A stretch of DNA of 64,000 nucleotides from Rhodospirillales bacterium (GTDB lineage: Bacteria; Pseudomonadota; Alphaproteobacteria; CACIAM-22H2), in the NCBI GenBank assembly GCA_016794025.1, contig JAEUKX010000078.1:124001-188000 (forward strand), written 5' to 3'. Shown in pieces: positions 1-21,231 of the stretch; position 1 is the first letter of the stretch, and every line of letters starts with the position of its first letter. A model generated the notes under the pieces. It did not search any database and was not told where the DNA came from. It saw only the letters and a program-made list of their open reading frames with translations. The position numbers and the translations under genes were made by a program.

Positions 1-231
1 GCAGATCTTTCCAATTCGGATATGCGTTTCTCCAATCTCGGCGGCGTGGCTCTGTTTGGCTCGAAGCTGGTCAACGCCGACCTGACTGGCGCCGGGCTAC
101 GCTTCCAGGATATCCGGACAGACACCGATCTCTCCGGTGCGATAATGCCGGACGGAAAGCGTTGTTCGTCGCCGTCGATCGGCGATTGCAAGAATCCGAC
201 GGCGGCGGGTACTTCGCCGCCTCGGCATTGA
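1..231 (+). CDS. Pentapeptide-repeat protein, C-terminal fragment
   Basis: The frame is open from base 1 and ends at a TGA at 229-231, so only the C-terminus is present. The visible residues show repeats of the A(D/N)LxX type (ADLSN, ANAD-like NADLTG, GAGLRFQ, TDLSGA) typical of the pentapeptide-repeat right-handed beta-helix, followed by a short non-repetitive tail containing two cysteines. The cellular role of such proteins is usually unknown. It lies 36 bp before a hybrid histidine kinase on the same strand, but nothing shows that they work together. Confidence 0.75.
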   Translation, partial: ADLSNSDMRFSNLGGVALFGSKLVNADLTGAGLRFQDIRTDTDLSGAIMPDGKRCSSPSIGDCKNPTAAGTSPPRH

Positions 232-267
232 TGCCGACCATGAAATCGTCGACGTAGCCGAGCGTCG

Positions 268-2643
268 ATGGCCAGCGAAGACCGTGGTGAGGATCCCGCG
301 ATTGAAAATGCCCGTTTGAGGCGCGAACTCGAGCGGGAGCGGGCACTCCTGCGTGCGGTGCTCGACAATATGGATGAAGGCGTGGTCGTCTCGGACGCCG
401 GTTTCAAGGTTGTCGCCTATAACCAGCGCTTTGTCGACTACTATGCCGTCCCTCCGGAGGTCACGAATGCGCCCGATCCTCATCGGGAGATGGCGCGTTT
501 CATGGTTGCGCGCGGCGCACTCGACGTGCAGGCGGCCTTCCGGACCTGGCGATCCGGCATGCAGGGTGCGACGTTCGAGGTCGCAAGGCCCGATGGCCGC
601 ATTCTGGAGGTTCACTCGAACCCCCTTCCCGAAGGCGGTTTCGTTTCGACTTATGTCGACATCACCGATCGAAAGCGAGCCCAGGCCGAACTTGTCAGCA
701 TGAGGCAGATTGCCGAGACGGCAAATGCCGCAAAGTCGAGCTTTCTTGCCGCGATGAGCCATGAAATCCGTACGCCGATGAACGGTGTTCTTGGCATGCT
801 CGAGTTGCTGCATGAGACAAAGCTCGAGCCCGACCAGATATCAATGGTCGATGTCGTTCGGGAAAGCGCTTCCTCGCTGCTCAAGATCATCGACGACATT
901 TTAGATTTTTCGAAGATCGAAGCCGGAAAGCTCGAGATTGAGAACGTTGAGGTGTCGCCTCGCAGGATCGCCGAAAGCGTGACTGAAACCCTTTCGGTTC
1001 AGGCGCGCAGGAAAGGGCTTGCGCTCCATTGCTTTGTCGACCCTGCCATCGATCGGGATTTTCTCGGTGATCCAGGGCGCCTGCGGCAGGTGCTGTTCAA
1101 TCTGGTCGGGAATGCCATCAAATTCACCGAAAGCGGTGCTGTCCGTCTTGCTGTTCGCCAATCGGAGTCAGGGCCGGAAGGTCAGCTTGATTTTGCCGTG
1201 AGTGATACCGGCATCGGTCTGAGCGACGAGGAGATCGCGCGGCTTTTCCGTCCCTTTGTCCAAGCTGACTCCTCGACGACGCGACGGTTTGGGGGGACGG
1301 GCCTGGGGCTATCGATCTCGATGCGGCTTGTCGAGCTGATGGGCGGGCGCATCACTGTCACGAGCAAGCTAGGACAAGGGTCGACATTCGGATTTTCCGT
1401 TTTTATGCCGTCGCTGCCCTTTGCTGCCGCGTTGCGACCGCTTGAGGGAAAGCGGGTAACGGTAGTCGAGCAGGACGAGTTTTCCCGTGCGGCAATGACA
1501 TCATATCTTGAGCGTGCCGGGGCATCGGTCACAAGCCATTCAGACCCACATGCCGCCCTGGATGAAATGGAACGGGCGGGCGACGAAGGCATTGCGCCAG
1601 ATGTCGTCGTCGTCCGTCACGAGTCGTCGCCAATTGACGGCATGATACTTGGCGAAACCATTCGCGGTACCCCGCAGTTGTTCGGCACCAGGATTGTTTT
1701 GGCATGCACGGCGCATAGTGCGGGGCTGCGCAAGCGGGCGGCCGAGCGCGGCATCGATGCCGTCGTGCAACTGCCACTGCGCCGCGACCTGTTTGTTCAC
1801 GCAGTCAGCGGCGAGTTCCGGCCGGCGGTACGCGATGTTGGCGCGTCACAGGCCGCTTTGCACGACGATCTTGTGCTCGTTGCAGAGGACAATCCGACCA
1901 ATCGACTGGTGGTTGCCCGCCAATTGACCAGACTTGGTTTCCGGCATGAGGTCGTCGAGGACGGTCGGGCAGCCTATGAACGCTGGCGACAAGGCGGCAT
2001 CGATCTCATCCTAACCGACTGCCACATGCCTGGGATGGATGGCTTCGAACTCGCCAGGGCAATCCGCGAACGCGAACGCAATTCCAAGGATGCGCCGACA
2101 CCCATTGTCGCACTGAGCGCGAACGCGATGGCTGGCGAGGCCGAACGTTGCCTCGCGGCGGGAATGGACGGATTTGTCGCCAAGCCGGCGACGCTTGCGA
2201 GTCTGTCGGCCGCATTGCATACAGCGCTCGGAAGGGCGTCAACGGCACCGGACGTGGAGGACGTGGCGGGCGACCGACAGGCCCCCGACGCGGATGTGGA
2301 TTTTGCGACGCTGAAGAATCTTTATGGCTCCGACAGTCGAGATCTCCGACAGGTGATCGGGCTTTACTTCGAAAACGGAGCCAAACTCGTCGACGAGATG
2401 ACGGCGGCCCTGAAAATCCGTGATCTGGATGGAGCCATGCATGCTGCCCACGCTCTCAAGGGTGCGTCCCGGACGATCGGTGCTGTAGCGGTTGGAGATG
2501 CCGCCTCATTGCTGGAGGCGGCATTGCATGCGAGAGACTGGGAAGGCGTCGAGGCACGGCTCGGCGATGTGCGTGGTGGTTTTGAGATCGCCCGAGCGAA
2601 GCTCCTGCTGGCATTGTCGCCTGCGGGCGGAGCCTTGGGCTGA
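268..2643 (+). CDS. Hybrid sensor histidine kinase/response regulator (PAS-HisKA-HATPase-REC-REC-HPT)
   Basis: A 791-residue phosphorelay kinase. Order: short coiled coil (about 10-30), PAS domain (about 28-135), HisKA with the phospho-acceptor His165 in SHEIRTPMNG, HATPase with N (NLVGNAIKF), G1 (DTGIG) and G2 (GGTGLGLSIS) boxes, a degenerate receiver (about 393-510), a canonical receiver (about 535-655, phospho-acceptor Asp584 in TDCHMPGMDG), and a C-terminal HPT domain with His728 in AHALKGAS. No membrane segment is visible, so it is probably cytoplasmic. The first receiver-like domain has VVVRHESS where the phospho-Asp should be and is probably inactive. A stand-alone receiver starts 11 bp after the stop and is the obvious output partner. 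Its signal and targets are unknown. Confidence 0.93.
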   Translation: MASEDRGEDPAIENARLRRELERERALLRAVLDNMDEGVVVSDAGFKVVAYNQRFVDYYAVPPEVTNAPDPHREMARFMVARGALDVQAAFRTWRSGMQGATFEVARPDGRILEVHSNPLPEGGFVSTYVDITDRKRAQAELVSMRQIAETANAAKSSFLAAMSHEIRTPMNGVLGMLELLHETKLEPDQISMVDVVRESASSLLKIIDDILDFSKIEAGKLEIENVEVSPRRIAESVTETLSVQARRKGLALHCFVDPAIDRDFLGDPGRLRQVLFNLVGNAIKFTESGAVRLAVRQSESGPEGQLDFAVSDTGIGLSDEEIARLFRPFVQADSSTTRRFGGTGLGLSISMRLVELMGGRITVTSKLGQGSTFGFSVFMPSLPFAAALRPLEGKRVTVVEQDEFSRAAMTSYLERAGASVTSHSDPHAALDEMERAGDEGIAPDVVVVRHESSPIDGMILGETIRGTPQLFGTRIVLACTAHSAGLRKRAAERGIDAVVQLPLRRDLFVHAVSGEFRPAVRDVGASQAALHDDLVLVAEDNPTNRLVVARQLTRLGFRHEVVEDGRAAYERWRQGGIDLILTDCHMPGMDGFELARAIRERERNSKDAPTPIVALSANAMAGEAERCLAAGMDGFVAKPATLASLSAALHTALGRASTAPDVEDVAGDRQAPDADVDFATLKNLYGSDSRDLRQVIGLYFENGAKLVDEMTAALKIRDLDGAMHAAHALKGASRTIGAVAVGDAASLLEAALHARDWEGVEARLGDVRGGFEIARAKLLLALSPAGGALG

Positions 2644-13478: not shown

Positions 13479-14663
13479 GTGGGGGACGCCAGTTCGGTGC
13501 GCAGTTCCATCTATTCAATGATCGAGAATGACGGCGTCCCGTCCTGGCGCCGTAACGTCGTCAATGCCTTTTTCACGATGACGATCGTTCTTTGGCTCGC
13601 CGAAGGCGTGCTGCGGACCGTGCCGGCCAATGGTGGCAGGTTCGGAGGCGTGTTCGGTGAGATCGAGTGGGTCGTTTCCATCGCTTTCGTCGTGGATTGG
13701 CTGCTTCGCGTCTGGACCGCACCCGAGCGCTTTCATGCCGGGGCCATGTCCAATCTTCGTGCAAGGGTGGGGTACGTCCTCTCGCCGATGGGCATTGTCG
13801 ATCTGGCCGTCCCTTTGGCGTTTTTTCTCGGAAAGGCCTTCTCCCGATCGCATTCTCCGGCAGTCGAGTTGGTAGAACTCTGTGCCGTATTCAAATTGAC
13901 CCGGTATTTTCCGGGGCTCGATCTTGTTTTCGCAGTTCTCCGGACCGAACTTCGGCCGCTCGGGGCAGCGCTCGCGGCAATGCTGACCCTTCTCCTGCTT
14001 GCGTCGAGCTCGATGTATTACCTCGAACGCGACGCCCAGCCGGAGATGTTTGCTTCGATTCCGCATGCGATGTGGTGGGGCATTGTCACAATCGCCACGG
14101 TCGGATACGGCGACATGGCGCCAGTGACGGCGTTGGGAAAGCTGACGGCAGGCGGCGTTCTTCTTGTTGGTATCGCACTTTTCGCGGTGCCGGCAGGTAT
14201 CCTTGCGAACGGATTTGCAACCGAACTCAAGAAGCGCGAGTTCATCGTCACCTGGCGTTTGATCGCGAAACTGCCAATTTTCTCGGATCTCGATGCGGCG
14301 GTGATCGCGTCGATTGCCCGATTGCTTCAGCCGCGGGCCATGCCGAAGGACAGCGTGATCGTCCGGAAGGGCGAGCCGGGGCACGCGATGTATTTCATTC
14401 TCAATGGGCAAGCCGAGGTCCACATCGAGCCTAAAAGCGTGATGCTGGGTCCGGGGACCTACTTCGGAGAGATCGCCCTTTTGATGGATGTGCCACGAGG
14501 GGCAACGGTGGTCGCCAACACGGACTGCGAATTGCTCGAACTCGGCGCGACGGAATTCCGGCGGGTCTGCATCGAATACCCGCAGCTCAAGGCGCGCGTC
14601 GAACGGGAGGCGGCTGCCCGTCTAGGTCGAGACCGCGCGACGCAGCCTGTCAAAGGCGAATGA
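13479..14663 (+). CDS. Cyclic-nucleotide-gated potassium channel (MlotiK1-like)
   Basis: 394 residues: a six-helix voltage-sensor-like channel core with the K+ selectivity filter TVGYGD (about residue 204-209), then a C-terminal cyclic-nucleotide-binding domain (about 265-385) with the phosphate-binding cassette GEIALLMDVPRGATV, whose Arg contacts the cyclic phosphate. It has no C-linker of eukaryotic length, as in MlotiK1. S4 is poor in positive charges, so gating is likely ligand-driven rather than voltage-driven. The start is GTG at 13479; an ATG at 13518 is possible. Its stop overlaps the start of the DMT gene. Confidence 0.9.
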   Translation: MGDASSVRSSIYSMIENDGVPSWRRNVVNAFFTMTIVLWLAEGVLRTVPANGGRFGGVFGEIEWVVSIAFVVDWLLRVWTAPERFHAGAMSNLRARVGYVLSPMGIVDLAVPLAFFLGKAFSRSHSPAVELVELCAVFKLTRYFPGLDLVFAVLRTELRPLGAALAAMLTLLLLASSSMYYLERDAQPEMFASIPHAMWWGIVTIATVGYGDMAPVTALGKLTAGGVLLVGIALFAVPAGILANGFATELKKREFIVTWRLIAKLPIFSDLDAAVIASIARLLQPRAMPKDSVIVRKGEPGHAMYFILNGQAEVHIEPKSVMLGPGTYFGEIALLMDVPRGATVVANTDCELLELGATEFRRVCIEYPQLKARVEREAAARLGRDRATQPVKGE

Positions 14664-15562
14664 TGTCGCAGGTCGTTCCAACGGAGCCGGATACCCGGCG
14701 CGATAACCTGCGCGCGGCCGGATATATGACTCTGTCGACGGTCTTCTTCTCGATCAACGATGCGATCATGAAATTCCTTTCGTCGGAGATTCCCATGCTC
14801 CAGGCGATGGCAATTCGCGGGGCGATTGTCTCGATCGGCCTCGTCCTTCTTGCGTACCACTCGGGTGCGCTGAAGCGCTGGACGAGCATTGCGGATCCGG
14901 TCGTCGTCGGACGTTCCACCTTCGAAACGGTCGGGTCGTTCGCATTCATGCTGTCGTTGCCGCATATTCCGCTCGCGTCCGCGATCGCATTGAACATGGC
15001 GACCCCGCTTTGCGCGCTGCCTCTGGCGGCAATCGTCCTGCGCGAACGATACGGCTGGCGGCGGATCGCGGCGGTACTTGTCGGGTTCTTCGGGGTAATG
15101 CTCATCCTTCAGCCGTCGACCGATGGGGTCGATCCGTGGCTGCTGCTTTCGTTCACGTCGTCTCTGTTCTTTGCGATGCGGGATGTCGCGACACGGCGGA
15201 TTTCCGGCGAGATCCCGACATCGCTGGTGGCGCTGGCAATGGCCGTTGTCGTGACGGTGACAACGGGCACCGTGAGCTATCTGGACGGCTGGATCTGGAT
15301 CAGCGGGAAGCAGGCCGGGCTCCTCTGCGTCGCCGCAGTCATGGTCGGGTTTGGTTATACGCTCGTCGTCAAGGCGATGCGCCAGGGTGAAGTCAGCCTT
15401 ACGGGAGCGTTCAGGTACTCGGCGTTGTTCTGGGCAACAGCCTTCGGGTGGCTGCTCTGGCGTGAAATCCCGAATTCCACTGCATGGCTGGGGATAGCCC
15501 TCATCCTCAGCGCCGGGCTCTATGCATTGCACCGGGAGCGCGTCCGCGCCCGCCGAACATGA
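14660..15562 (+). CDS. DMT-superfamily (EamA) transporter, copy 1
   Basis: 300 residues, ten membrane helices in two EamA repeats (about 20-150 and 165-295). The start ATGATG overlaps the channel gene's TGA, and the stop overlaps the start of a second DMT gene (ATGA), so the three genes should be co-translated. The paired lines MRDVATRRI and FRYSALFWATAFGWLLWRE recur in the next gene, showing tandem duplication. The substrate is unknown; this family usually exports metabolites or amino acids. Confidence 0.87.
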   Translation: MMSQVVPTEPDTRRDNLRAAGYMTLSTVFFSINDAIMKFLSSEIPMLQAMAIRGAIVSIGLVLLAYHSGALKRWTSIADPVVVGRSTFETVGSFAFMLSLPHIPLASAIALNMATPLCALPLAAIVLRERYGWRRIAAVLVGFFGVMLILQPSTDGVDPWLLLSFTSSLFFAMRDVATRRISGEIPTSLVALAMAVVVTVTTGTVSYLDGWIWISGKQAGLLCVAAVMVGFGYTLVVKAMRQGEVSLTGAFRYSALFWATAFGWLLWREIPNSTAWLGIALILSAGLYALHRERVRARRT

Positions 15563-16446
15563 ATAACCAGAAATATCGAGCGATCGGATACATGGTTGCG
15601 TCGATGGCGCTTTTCGTCGTTTCCGACACGCTGATGAAGCTCGCTAGCGACGACGTGCCGGCGGCCCAGATGCTGGTCGTCCGAGGCGCGATCCTCGGCA
15701 CGGCAGTCCTGGTCGTGCTCTGGAGATCGGGGCTCCTCGTCCACGTCCGGGAAATCGGCCACCCCGATGCGATCCTTCGGACCCTCTGCGAGGGTGCCGG
15801 GACTGTTGCCTATATCCTGTCCCTTGCGCACATCCCGATCGCTACGGCCTTGGCGATCCACATGTCGACGCCGCTGTTTGTTCTGCCGTTTGCGGCCTGG
15901 ATACTCGGGGAACGGATCGGCGCCCTGCAGATTTCCGCCGTCACGGTCGGTTTGCTTGGTGTCATGCTGGTCCTGCAGCCGGCCGCTGCCGGGCCCGATC
16001 ACTGGGTCTTGGTCAGCGCAACTTCGGCCGTGCTGTTCGCATTGCGCGATACGATGACAAGAAGATTGCGTGCCTCCCTGCCGAGCATGCTTGTAATGGC
16101 TGCTGGCATTGCGGCCGGCATTCTCGCGGCCAGCATCGATGTTGCCGCGCGCGGATGGGAGCCGGTCAGCCGGAGTGCGTGGTTCGCCGCTGCGGGTTCG
16201 GCCGTGTTTGTCGGCTTCGGAATGCTTTTCCTGATCCGTTCGATGCGCGGGGCGGATGTCAGCATGGTCTCGCCGTTCCGGTACACGGCGATCATCTGGG
16301 CGACCGCATCAGGTTATCTGGTGTGGGGGACGCTGCCCGATTTCTGGACGATTGGCGGCGTCAGCCTGATCTGCGTCGGCGGGCTTATCGCACTCCGGTT
16401 GGCGCGGATCAACGCCAAAGACCGCGCTCCGCAAGCCAGCGATTGA
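15559..16446 (+). CDS. DMT-superfamily (EamA) transporter, copy 2
   Basis: 295 residues with ten helices, clearly related to the preceding gene (LRDTMTRRL and FRYTAIIWATASGYLVWG correspond to its copies). The ATG at 15559 overlaps the previous stop. A longer frame from 15484 exists but is basic and non-membrane, so it is rejected. The last 38 bases overlap, tail to tail, the minus-strand lipoprotein gene. The pair may function as two homodimers or one heterodimer; the sequence does not decide. Confidence 0.86.
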   Translation: MNNQKYRAIGYMVASMALFVVSDTLMKLASDDVPAAQMLVVRGAILGTAVLVVLWRSGLLVHVREIGHPDAILRTLCEGAGTVAYILSLAHIPIATALAIHMSTPLFVLPFAAWILGERIGALQISAVTVGLLGVMLVLQPAAAGPDHWVLVSATSAVLFALRDTMTRRLRASLPSMLVMAAGIAAGILAASIDVAARGWEPVSRSAWFAAAGSAVFVGFGMLFLIRSMRGADVSMVSPFRYTAIIWATASGYLVWGTLPDFWTIGGVSLICVGGLIALRLARINAKDRAPQASD

Positions 16447-17461
16447 TTGCCGCCGCGATATCGGCGTTGTTCCGGTCCATCATCATCACGTGACTGTTCC
16501 CCGTGATGCCGATCTGGGGGAGGTCGATCACAGTCACGAATCCTCCGGCCGCCCGGACCTCGTCGAAATATCGCAGCCCGCTGCCCTTGATCATTGGCCA
16601 ACGCGGGTCCTGATCGATGAAGTCGCCGTAGAGGGCGAGAACCGGCACACCCTTGATCTTCTCGATCGACGCCGTTTCGCCGACGCCCGCCGGTTCGACC
16701 GCAACAAGCGCCCTGATCTTGTCTGCTCTCGCTTCGGCAGCCCGGAAGGCAAGCTGGCCACCCTGGCCATGCGCGATGACCGCACAGGGGCAGATCCGGT
16801 CGATTGCCGCAATATAGGCGGCGAGGGCGGCATCATCGGTCGTTGTCCAGCGGGGAACGAACTGGCGTACGAACTTGTCGTAGGCATCGATCGGGAACTG
16901 GCTGCCCGGCATCAGTTCGCGCTTTGTGTAACTGCCGGCTCCATTGCCGATGCGGAAGCGCTCGAAAGGCTCGTTCTTCGCCAGGAATATCGGCGCGCCT
17001 TCGAATGTCTGGGACCAGCCTGCGCGCCCGCGTTCTACCGCATCGACGTTATAGACAGGCCAGCCGCGGCGCAGAAAATAATTCAACCAGCCTTCGCGGC
17101 CGTCTGGCGTCGTCTCGTACTCGACACCGGTCATGCCACCGCCGTGCATGAACAGGATGGGCAGGATCGAGCGGCGGCTTGCGGGCACGAAGTATTGAAC
17201 GTAGGCCTGCTCGACCGAAAACGTTCCGTTTGGATCAATGCGGACGGTAATGCCACCCGGCGACAGGGCAAGATCGCGCGTGGGTTGGCCGGATATTGTG
17301 ACGTCGCGGCCGCCGACGTGAAAGGATCCCATGTCGGCGAGCTGCAATGGGCCGTTCTCGGATCCAGACGAACTGCCGCCGCACGCTGCAACGAGCATGG
17401 TTGGAAGAAGCAGGCTCGCCAGGACCAGGGAGCGGCGGAGCATATTCCGGATGGAGATCAT
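16409..17461 (-). CDS. Lipoprotein with alpha/beta-hydrolase fold lacking the nucleophile serine
   Basis: 350 residues. A lipoprotein signal ends in VAAC with lipidation at Cys27. The body is an alpha/beta hydrolase: oxyanion-side MHGGGMTGVEY (about 105-115), AVERGRAGW (141-149), the nucleophile elbow at 229-234 reading AHGQGG, an acid strand with LYGDFID (277-283) and a late His324 in GNSHVMMMD. Relatives have A-H-S-Q-G-G at the elbow; here position 232 is Gly (codon GGC, one transition from AGC Ser). It is therefore probably inactive as a serine esterase while keeping the other triad residues. It is the last gene of a three-gene operon, overlapping its neighbour as ATGA. Confidence 0.82.
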   Translation of the reverse strand: MISIRNMLRRSLVLASLLLPTMLVAACGGSSSGSENGPLQLADMGSFHVGGRDVTISGQPTRDLALSPGGITVRIDPNGTFSVEQAYVQYFVPASRRSILPILFMHGGGMTGVEYETTPDGREGWLNYFLRRGWPVYNVDAVERGRAGWSQTFEGAPIFLAKNEPFERFRIGNGAGSYTKRELMPGSQFPIDAYDKFVRQFVPRWTTTDDAALAAYIAAIDRICPCAVIAHGQGGQLAFRAAEARADKIRALVAVEPAGVGETASIEKIKGVPVLALYGDFIDQDPRWPMIKGSGLRYFDEVRAAGGFVTVIDLPQIGITGNSHVMMMDRNNADIAAAINRWLAERGLWR

Positions 17462-17904
17462 TTCGTCTCTTCCGCTTTCGGATCGTCGAGGGAGTCGCCC
17501 CATGCCGCACGCAATTCTTCTTGCCGCTTTTCGAGTAACTGGAACTGGTCGCCTTGGCTGCGTTTGTGGATCATCCGCCCGATAGCCGGGCCGACAAAGG
17601 ACACAAGGAAGCCCAAACCAGCTGCGCAAAGCGGAATGATCCAGGCCATCGGATCGGCGGCCGGGTTCCGGACCGGATCGAGGAGCCCGACGAGAATGAC
17701 CGGGCCGGCCGCGGCGAACGTCATCGCGCCGCCGCCCAGGGAGACGAAACGCCGTCCGGATCCCTCGAGCAGCGCAACGACGGCGCAAGGCGCAAATATC
17801 CCGAAAACATAAACAAGCATGGCCGGCTTAAGAACGACCACGGCCGCGATAAGAAGTGCCGCGGCAAGGATCGCGAAGACGAACAGGAGCGTTCGGAAGC
17901 TCAT
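17458..17904 (-). CDS. Small polytopic membrane protein of unknown function
   Basis: 148 residues, four probable membrane helices (about 5-27, 28-45, 58-75 and 85-112) and a charged cytoplasmic tail (HKRSQGDQFQLLEKRQEELR and beyond) that may form a short coiled coil. No known family is recognised. It overlaps both neighbours by 4 bp (ATGA at each end), so it is translationally coupled to the pseudokinase above and the lipoprotein below. It may link them across the inner membrane (inference). Confidence 0.75.
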   Translation of the reverse strand: MSFRTLLFVFAILAAALLIAAVVVLKPAMLVYVFGIFAPCAVVALLEGSGRRFVSLGGGAMTFAAAGPVILVGLLDPVRNPAADPMAWIIPLCAAGLGFLVSFVGPAIGRMIHKRSQGDQFQLLEKRQEELRAAWGDSLDDPKAEETK

Positions 17905-19925
17905 GGACCACCTCGGCCGAGCTGGGAAAAGAGCTGGAAAAGCACCGTCACGATCGCAAGCCCGGAGAGGATGACCAGCGAAATTTCCTGGCCTTTCTCG
18001 GCTCCCATGCGCGCCGTTGCTTCGACGATCGAATCGCGCATGTTCAGGATCCGCTGGTTCGCATCGAATTCTTGCTTGGCCTGCTGGAACTCGGCGTTGT
18101 CGGCACCGAACACGACCGGATCGGTCGCGATTTCCGCAAGGCTCTGGATATCATAAGTCGCGGCGGCAGCGTCGGCCTTGGCAGCGGTCTCGGCCCGGAC
18201 ATTCGGATTGCGCAGCCGGTCGATCAGGGCGATTGCCGCCGAGTGACAGATTTTCGTCAGGTTCGGGAGCTGCTTCCCCTTCGATTCAACAACTATCTTG
18301 ACGCCAACTTTCAGGATGGCGGCGGCCCTGCGCGGGTCTTTTCCGTCGAACGAGCGAAGCGCGCCTAGATCCGCAACGGTGATCCCGCCGCGTGCGCCGA
18401 GGAAGGCGACGATATGGGCATCCGGATCGAAGCTCCCCCGACCCAGCCCCGCCTCGAACACGTCAAGGAGATCGCCCAGCGTATCGACCCACGCGCCCTG
18501 AACCTCGGGCGACAGGCACGGCGCGTCGGGATTCAGCTTGTAGAGCGCGCTCTCGAGCTTCTCGACCCCGTTCGAGACGCGGTCTTCCAGATCCATCAAT
18601 GCCTTTGCGGGCTCGTCGATCAGCCCGACCGGTGTGGCCGCCTTCGCCCACAGATGGACGATGCGGCCGGCAAACAGCTCTTCCATCTGCTGCCGCTTTT
18701 CCGGCTCGAGCATCGCCGAATACATCACGGAACCCGCTCCGGAAGGGAAGAACGCGAGGTCGCGATAGCGGATCGGCCCGAATGGATCGAGCCGGACCGC
18801 TTCCTTCGCGAGGAGGAGCTCGCGCGACGCGAGCAACTGGCCCGAGTTCCCGGTCTCGTCGATATTGAGGGAGATGGCCCTCTGCACATCATTTGCCTTG
18901 AGCCAGTTCGCAATATCGCCGCGCTCAAGTGCGTCGCCCGCAGGACCGGGGTAACGCTGGATTGCGAAGGCGAGTTCGCGGGGTTCAAGGCACTGGACGG
19001 GGCCGATCTGAAGCGGACTGCCGCGGCGCGCACTTGGCCGCTTCTGCGGAACCTGCGGCCGGCGGCCATTGGCCCAGTCCGTGATCGCCGCAAGCGACCA
19101 GCGGAGCGTCACGTCGTCATCGATCAGGGCCATGACCGGATCGAAGAGCTCGCTCGGAATTTGCGATGTGTCGACGAGCGCGCTCACGGATCCATAGGAG
19201 AGCCTGCGTGCCATCAGCCCGTCGGGGTTCTGTCCTTCACCGGGGAACTTTCCCGTCGAAAGGCAGTAGAGCGTCATCCCGAGCGCGAACATGTCGTCGA
19301 TGGAACCGCCGGTTCCTTTGCCATCGGGGGAGGCGAGCGCGCGCTCTATCGGCTCGAATGTCGCCGGCTGGTCGTAGCCGACCGGTCCGAGCAGGCAGGG
19401 CCCGAGCGTGAAGAGCTGTCCCTTCGTATCCTGGTTGAAGATGTTGTCCGGTCGGATGGAGCCGTGCGTTTCACCGCGCTCCGAAAGTTCGGTGAGCGCC
19501 GCGCAGATGGGCTTCAGGAAGTTCTGAATGAGGATTCGTGGCGCCCAGCCGCCCCACATCCGTCGCGGCGGGCTCCCGCCCACGGGCTTCTCGAAAACAA
19601 ACGCGTAGCCGTCCCTGGCGCCCGGTCGCTTCAGGATACCGGCATCCAGGAGCGTCAGCAGGCCGGAACGAGACAGGCCACGCTGGCGCTGGGCGGCGCG
19701 GATGCGCACGGACCTGTCAGGCTCGCATACGTAGGCAAGGTGCTGCCCGTCCGGAAAGCGCCGGTCGACCGCCGCATAGGCCTTGGCGCCAGGCCGATCG
19801 AAAGTGGACAGCGGCGTGCCCAGATCGACAAGAACGTGCTCGCCGAGTGCGGCACCGTTGACGACGCCCGCGGGCGCGTCCGGGCCACGAACGAAGTTCA
19901 CTCGCGGAGGGAAGGGAGCTGGCAC
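17901..19925 (-). CDS. Membrane-anchored protein-kinase-like protein (pseudokinase)
   Basis: 674 residues, GTG start. Residues about 45-300 follow the Ser/Thr-kinase layout: the catalytic loop is HGSIRPDNIF (His154) instead of H-R-D-x-K-P-x-N, the metal-binding DFG is missing (TLGPC at the expected place), and the later DDMFALGMTLYCLSTGKFPG corresponds to the helix-F region. Both catalytic aspartates are thus absent, so phosphotransfer is unlikely. Residues 300-640 are mostly helical without a named domain. A C-terminal helix (about 645-668, LVILSGLAIVTVLFQLF) anchors it, with the bulk probably in the cytoplasm. It is first in an operon with the four-helix protein and the lipoprotein. Confidence 0.8.
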   Translation of the reverse strand: MPAPFPPRVNFVRGPDAPAGVVNGAALGEHVLVDLGTPLSTFDRPGAKAYAAVDRRFPDGQHLAYVCEPDRSVRIRAAQRQRGLSRSGLLTLLDAGILKRPGARDGYAFVFEKPVGGSPPRRMWGGWAPRILIQNFLKPICAALTELSERGETHGSIRPDNIFNQDTKGQLFTLGPCLLGPVGYDQPATFEPIERALASPDGKGTGGSIDDMFALGMTLYCLSTGKFPGEGQNPDGLMARRLSYGSVSALVDTSQIPSELFDPVMALIDDDVTLRWSLAAITDWANGRRPQVPQKRPSARRGSPLQIGPVQCLEPRELAFAIQRYPGPAGDALERGDIANWLKANDVQRAISLNIDETGNSGQLLASRELLLAKEAVRLDPFGPIRYRDLAFFPSGAGSVMYSAMLEPEKRQQMEELFAGRIVHLWAKAATPVGLIDEPAKALMDLEDRVSNGVEKLESALYKLNPDAPCLSPEVQGAWVDTLGDLLDVFEAGLGRGSFDPDAHIVAFLGARGGITVADLGALRSFDGKDPRRAAAILKVGVKIVVESKGKQLPNLTKICHSAAIALIDRLRNPNVRAETAAKADAAAATYDIQSLAEIATDPVVFGADNAEFQQAKQEFDANQRILNMRDSIVEATARMGAEKGQEISLVILSGLAIVTVLFQLFSQLGRGGP

Positions 19926-20016: not shown

Positions 20017-21231
20017 TCAGTTCATCGCCTTGCGAACGTTCTCGTCGATCTTGTCGAGGAACTTCGTCGTCGTCAGGAACGGTTGGTCGGGGGAGATCAA
20101 GGTCGCGAGATCCTTGGTCATGAAACCCGCTTCAACAGTCTCCACGCACACACGCTCGAGGGTCTTGGCGAAAAGGCAGACCTCCGGGGTCTTGTCGAAC
20201 TGGCCCCTGTACCAGATGCCCCGTGTCCACGCGAAGATCGAGGCGATGGGATTGGTCGACGTTTCCCGGCCCTTCTGATGCTCGCGATAGTGGCGCGTGA
20301 CTGTGCCGTGCGCGGCTTCGGATTCGATGCATTGGCCGTCCGGCGTGGTCAGGACCGATGTCATCAAGCCAAGGGACCCGTAACCCTGCGCGACCGTGTC
20401 GGACTGGACGTCGCCATCGTAGTTCTTCGTCGCCCAGAGGAAATTGCCCGGCCACTTCAGCGCCGAGGCCACCATGTCGTCGATCAGGCGGTGTTCGTAA
20501 GTAAGGCCCTTCGCCTTGAACTGGTCCTTGAACTCCTTGTCGAACACTTCCTGGAACAGGTCCTTGAAGCGGCCGTCATAGGCCTTGAGGATCGTGTTCT
20601 TCGTCGAGAGATAGACCGGGTAGCCGCGGTTGAGGCCGTAGTTGAAACACGCGCGCGCGAAGCCGCGGATCGACTCGTCGACGTTGAACATCGCCATCGC
20701 GACACCCGGACCGGGGAAGTCGAAGACCTGGTGGCGAATGTTGGTCTCGCCGTCCTTTGACGTAAAGGTGATGGACAGCTTGCCTGCCGACGGAACGACG
20801 AAATCGGTCGCACGGTACTGGTCGCCGAAGGAGTGGCGACCGATCACGATCGGCGCCGTCCAGTTCGGGACCAGACGCGGGACGTTCTTGCAGATGATGG
20901 GCTCGCGGAAGATCGTGCCGTCGAGGATGTTGCGAATCGTGCCGTTGGGAGAGCGCCACATCTGCTTGAGGCCGAACTCCTTTACGCGGGCCTCGTCCGG
21001 CGTGATCGTCGCGCACTTGACACCGACCTTGTGCAGCTTGATCGCGTTGGCGGCGTCGACGGTCACCTGATCGTCCGTCTTGTCGCGGTACTCGATCCCG
21101 AGATCGAAATACTTGAGGTCGACATCCAGATACGGCGTGATCAGCCGCTCGCGGATCAGCTTCCAGATGATTCGGGTCATCTCGTCGCCGTCGAGTTCGA
21201 CGATCGGATTGGCGACCTTGATCTTTTTCAT
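20017..21231 (-). CDS. icd: NADP-dependent isocitrate dehydrogenase (homodimeric, eukaryote-like type)
   Basis: 404 residues; oxidative decarboxylation of isocitrate to 2-oxoglutarate in the TCA cycle. The start [20 protein letters not shown] and the substrate loop [10 protein letters not shown] are typical of the subfamily II enzyme found in alphaproteobacteria and mitochondria, as are YDGDVQSD (metal aspartates) and [17 protein letters not shown] (NADP site). The length equals the family norm. It stands alone with its own terminator. A GGGGAG ribosome site precedes the ATG. Confidence 0.97.

Follow-up and report, generated by a model that had tools for sequence, protein, structure and literature searches.

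A predicted pseudokinase and its membrane partner in Alphaproteobacteria, and an esterase-family lipoprotein joined to them in a Tagaea-like genus

Three genes on the minus strand of a 64,000-nucleotide stretch of alphaproteobacterial DNA (hereafter the window) encode a kinase-like protein (K), a small membrane protein (M) and a lipoprotein of hydrolase fold (H). The original prediction was that the three form one unit, in which two enzyme-like proteins without their central catalytic residues relay or scaffold a signal across the envelope. The question raised by the locus is therefore which of these genes belong together, and what proteins of this kind might do for the cell.

The 4-bp overlaps read at both junctions (K/M, 17901-17904; M/H, 17458-17461) were confirmed by the coordinates (Table 1). 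Ten genomes of the genus to which the window belongs all keep K, M and H as genes, which rules out a chance set of open reading frames. The order icd-K-M-H was seen in genomes of the genus wherever the contig reaches far enough. The size of the overlap varies among relatives, K-M spacing ranging from -4 to +4 and M-H spacing from about -32 to +47, the start codons being uncertain. Scans for promoters and terminators gave no clear excess over shuffled sequences, and a hairpin 3' of icd was not significant (z -1.6).

The window comes from genome G000, a draft alphaproteobacterial assembly of 115 contigs that is 87% complete. Among the named relatives closest to it is Tagaea sp. CACIAM 22H2, and genus names differ among deposits from this Tagaea-like group. 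Downstream of H and convergent with it lie two tandem EamA/DMT-type transporter genes (14660-16446, plus strand), one or two of which are kept as neighbours in the genus (cluster c3). The gene at 13479-14663 (plus strand) appears to encode a potassium channel of voltage-gated type (TIATVGYGDM) with a fused cyclic-nucleotide-binding domain; most genus members seen have a homologue close to the operon (cluster c18).

Table 1. Features of the K, M and H genes and their products, in window coordinates unless a locus is named
Feature	Residues	Position	Strand	Description
K		19925-17901	-	GTG start; 674 aa; predicted pseudokinase
M		17904-17458	-	148 aa; predicted four-helix membrane protein
H		17461-16409	-	350 aa; esterase-713 family lipoprotein
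icd		20017-21231	-	isocitrate dehydrogenase; conserved upstream neighbour of K, outside the K-M pair
K, kinase fold	~25-298			profile search, Foldseek, AlphaFold2
K, catalytic-loop equivalent HGSIRPDN	H154-N161	19443-19466	-	HRDxKPxN expected; Ser156 at the Asp position
K, DFG equivalent TLG	173-175	19401-19409	-	family alignment
K, unnamed helical domain	~300-602			AlphaFold2 and family alignment
K, long single helix	603-671			AlphaFold2 model; carries the C-terminal membrane anchor
K, C-terminal hydrophobic anchor	~650-669	17919-17978	-	sequence; within helix 603-671 of the model
H, lipobox LVAAC-G-G	Cys27	17381-17383	-	+2 residue Gly; read from sequence
H, nucleophile position	Gly232	16766-16768	-	codon GGC; elbow AHGQG; aligned to esterase 713 Ser
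H, acid residue	Glu256	16694-16696	-	kept in all aligned family members
H, catalytic-type His	His324	16490-16492	-	kept in all aligned family members
M genes away from K in G036		L198:7059-7496, L199:7297-7875, L200:7378-7899

The kinase-like protein and its membrane partner

The N-terminal ~270 residues of K match PDB kinase profiles (E 8e-11, hmmsearch), and a Pkinase match was obtained for 58 of 63 members of the K family (E up to 0.1). The AlphaFold2 model (pLDDT 90.3) matched PknA/PknB in Foldseek (E 3e-8), with TM scores of ~0.66-0.75 (by target) against the best bacterial kinases. K is thus predicted, from sequence profiles and the model, to adopt a two-lobed protein kinase-like fold. 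As had been claimed for the window protein, K has neither the HRD nor the DFG aspartate of an active Ser/Thr kinase, and the same was found across all 37 aligned homologues, some as distant as ~20% identity: the HRD Asp position is occupied by S, A or G in 37/37 and the DFG Asp is missing in 37/37, so that an intact kinase site was found in none. The structural residues N161, G175, D211 and R275 are invariant in the same set. In an alignment to PknB that was read by eye, the alpha-C Glu position of K is Ala, and neither the beta3 Lys nor the alpha-C Glu could be recognised. These alignments indicate that K is a pseudokinase by family and not by accident. Some Azospirillum records annotate K as a serine/threonine protein kinase. 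N161 and Arg158 are kept, so K may bind nucleotide, a point that counts against the reading we favour below.

C-terminal to the kinase-like part, K is predicted to carry a helical domain followed by the long helix that bears its membrane anchor. Conservation here is strong: among the 63 K sequences E458, Y462, C470, S472, D502 and D609 are invariant and H504 is nearly so. The conserved residues of this part (residues 300-640; 18006-19028, minus strand) may mark an active site or a metal site. Scans of the domain against Pfam and NCBIfam gave scattered weak matches only, and a profile search of PDB sequences yielded no accepted relative; designed armadillo proteins were rejected since no stretch passed (one had two short ones), and the remaining matches were dismissed with E above 1.

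The AlphaFold2 model of M (pLDDT 92.8) has helices at residues 3-25, 28-46, 53-75 and 85-140. Sequence and models agree here with the expected C-terminal anchor of K and four helices of M. M ends in a long C-terminal helix with a conserved Trp-Gly motif (W135/G136, nearly invariant), and this tail is predicted to be cytoplasmic by the positive-inside rule. Pfam and NCBIfam scans of M returned only scattered weak matches and no Pfam family, and a fold search against the PDB gave no match below E 2.

In a scan with one genome per species, M was the next gene after K at 79 of 79 informative loci, an 80th having been left out because a contig end cuts it, and M adjoins K at nearly all loci of our first locus set too. 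The link between a pseudokinase and a membrane protein proposed for the window therefore holds far more widely than was proposed. K was found in 83 of 240 genomes of the class Alphaproteobacteria, about one third, and all 83 have M; an M match without K occurred in five of the 240, three of these matches being weak and two lying in incomplete genomes. Usually the pair sits in the order hisZ-purA-K-M, often followed by rpoH and rluD, and genomes of the window's genus carry several K-M pairs each. The most telling support for the pair comes from three genomes (G240, G192 and G053) in which K and M are unlinked and both have been kept. G240 is 99% complete and its separated K and M genes are both mid-contig, while G192 has K next to purA and M next to the gene of an RpoH-type sigma factor. 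The evolutionarily kept unit is the K-M pair.

Outside the class, a phylum sample of 249 genomes (alphaproteobacteria among them) gave one distant kinase domain only. This protein (L201:4988-7627; E 4e-29 to the K profile) is not part of a K-M pair and adjoins other signalling-type genes. One genome, G036, has one detected K and four M genes; since three of the latter lie apart from any K, M may also have roles without K. A covariation test between K and M, with 100 pairs and an effective number of 49, had too little power: the highest-scoring pairs within K showed no clear structural pattern, so the scores between the two proteins are meaningless.

A lineage-restricted lipoprotein with a changing nucleophile position

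H matches esterase 713 (1qlw) over residues 36-344 (E 2e-49) and 4q34 with E 1.7e-34, and its Pfam Abhydrolase_6 match is above the cut-off. By these matches H can be assigned to the esterase-713 family. It has a signal peptide with a lipobox Cys, as expected of a bacterial lipoprotein, and the ACGG at the lipobox is conserved in nine called and aligned orthologues. Gly at the +2 position of a lipobox predicts sorting to the outer membrane, a rule that derives from enterobacteria and is less tested in this class.

H of the window keeps His324 and Glu256, and the Ser of an active esterase 713 is replaced by Gly232. The proposed loss of the nucleophile thus stands for the window and fails for the locus at large: Ala (GCG) occupies the position in G002-G005, and Ser is present in five same-locus orthologues (G008, G010, G001, G006 and G009), among them the window's closest relative, G008. 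All ten more distant relatives of H have Ser. An intact nucleophile at this position is therefore found among H orthologues and, as described above, intact sites are found in no K homologue. A Cys-Pro-Cys motif (H residues 224-226; 16784-16792, minus strand) is conserved in the genus orthologues and is absent from most of the more distant relatives. As an alternative nucleophile it was rejected: it sits in a strand, six to eight residues upstream of the elbow.

H is joined to K-M in 10 of 11 genomes of the Tagaea-like genus, at the icd-type copy wherever the contig shows this. Outside the genus H was absent from all K-M loci examined, and the other K-M pairs of the same genus genomes are without it. 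Comparison of these loci indicates that H is a recent addition. With H lacking at these other loci, in the genus as well as beyond it, the three-gene unit of the original prediction does not hold in general; adjacency across alphaproteobacteria holds for K and M, and extends to H only in the Tagaea-like genus.

G008 is the sister of the window in both trees (96/96 on K, 93/93 on H), which makes two losses of the Ser the simplest reading. A single loss, which groups the window with the Ala clade, was rejected on the K tree (p-AU 0.027); it was not rejected on the H tree alone (p-AU 0.094), which counts against our preferred reading. Ala-clade H is still held by purifying selection, like that of the Ser clade: dN/dS of H was 0.070-0.094 among G002-G004 and ~0.18-0.19 in comparisons with G005, relative to 0.065 in the Ser pair G006-G009 and to 0.08-0.11 for K in the same Ala-clade species. 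Between the window and G008, dN/dS was 0.15 for H and 0.13 for K. The protein branch of window H is long (0.39, versus 0.004 for its sister G008). This could mean relaxed constraint and also counts against our reading; it is no clear proof of relaxation because the synonymous distance is high and the counts are near saturation. Gly232 is known from one draft assembly, and it is the four Ala-clade genomes that carry the argument.

Proposed role, rival readings and known systems

We somewhat favour the reading that K-M is a membrane-anchored, non-catalytic scaffold and that H, a recent addition in the envelope, kept a binding role after catalysis was lost. In Alphaproteobacteria K and M would together make up a single module, anchored in the membrane and non-phosphorylating, with the two proteins binding each other at the inner membrane through the terminal helix of K and the helices of M, and the kinase-like domain would be a platform for docking or scaffolding, like those of EssB/YukC and MviN. 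Among the paralogous K-M copies of the Tagaea-like genus, the one beside icd would have gained an esterase-713 lipoprotein. The Ser would then have been lost in the window (to Gly) and in a sister clade (to Ala), while the fold, the His, the Glu, the glycine-rich loop and the constraint stayed. In SulE, a related esterase, a Ser-to-Ala change leaves ~0.001% activity (PMC10356948), and the Gly and Ala forms of H are for this reason expected to be inactive. Expected inactivity together with continued constraint points to binding; most likely H, at least in the Gly and Ala species, binds a ligand or partner in the envelope without hydrolysing it. H is likely co-expressed with K-M. That H signals directly to K by way of M is no more than possible. 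We find doubtful the fuller proposal of a so far nameless complex, formed by K-M at the membrane for signalling or scaffolding, into which the Tagaea esterase feeds as a non-catalytic envelope receptor.

A trans-envelope relay along the lines of the original prediction, with H sensing a periplasmic ligand, M transmitting through the inner membrane and K relaying in the cytoplasm, would fit the tight icd-K-M-H order that is stable over the genus, and all close H orthologues found adjoin K-M. It was not borne out and we rate it as quite improbable: H is absent from K-M in every other lineage and from the further pairs of the genus genomes, its Gly at +2 would by prediction send it to the outer membrane, and the M-H spacing is variable. 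It is also unlikely, if a little less so, that H is a passenger gene downstream of K-M, co-transcribed without shared function and decaying in the window and the Ala clade. Its restriction to one lineage, the most probably double loss of the nucleophile and the long window branch are what such a passenger might be expected to show. Decay would, however, raise dN/dS and bring frameshifts, and it is therefore disfavoured by an open frame intact in ten species, by the His and Glu kept in all and by a dN/dS of 0.07-0.09 among the three closest Ala-clade species.

Least probable of all, in our judgement, is some other enzymatic activity of K, either through a kinase-like domain with a different transfer reaction (as in SidJ and SelO) or through its C-terminal domain. 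This would be compatible with the invariance of N161 and R158 in the kinase-like part and, within the C-terminal domain, with that of Glu458, Tyr462, Cys470, Ser472 and Asp502 and the near-invariance of His504; against it stand the absent HRD and DFG aspartates, a beta3 Lys and alpha-C Glu that are not recognisable and a C-terminal domain without an enzyme relative in Pfam or PDB sequences.

On the scaffold reading, the cell keeps two enzyme folds of which probably neither works as an enzyme (K in general, H in two lineages). K-M occurs in about one third of the sampled alphaproteobacterial genomes, including those of growable Azospirillum species, in a family without a name, and offers a tractable bacterial case for the role of a dead kinase. 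H provides a natural Ser/Ala/Gly series at one locus, in which catalysis versus binding under selection is directly testable.

Like esterase 713 (1qlw) and SulE, H matches over its full mature length and has the conserved His and Glu; unlike them it has Gly or Ala for the Ser in some species, and it is a lipoprotein whose gene is linked to those of the pseudokinase and M. In neuroligins and GID1, both pseudo-hydrolase receptors, a hydrolase fold has lost a catalytic residue and acts by binding. They are eukaryotic and offer a functional analogy only.

As had been supposed, no catalogued system of this composition was found, and no paper on the K family or the K-M pair turned up in the literature searched, which left out most subscription journals. 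A 2025 review recognises seven bacterial pseudokinase families, ActPs1-3, GLW, CP1, DYD and DLHK (PMC12599244). GLW pseudokinases are, like K, proteobacterial, with all motifs degraded and a transmembrane segment after the kinase domain (PMC12599244); K is not one of them, having HxxIRPxN and not GLW at the HRD position across its family. Nor is it a DLHK pseudokinase, since these keep the HRD Asp and have no transmembrane segment, the reverse of K. The TLG of K resembles the xLG at the DFG position of one Leptospira CP1 example; the CP1 family itself is defined by its clade in the bacterial kinase tree. MviN (ActPs3) of Mycobacterium is, like K, a membrane-linked pseudokinase, but there the domain lies within a large transmembrane protein that peptidoglycan synthesis requires, and the group is actinobacterial (PMC12599244). 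EssB/YukC, the membrane pseudokinase of the type VIIb secretion system, shares with K the degradation of all catalytic motifs and a single membrane segment, and it acts as a scaffold (PMC12599244). Pfam and NCBIfam scans gave no EssB-type match to K, which differs in its extra domain of ~300 aa, in an anchor at the very C-terminus and in its partner M. Like EssB/YukC, K is probably a scaffold, a pseudokinase that carries a domain without a name and has an obligate partner in the membrane.
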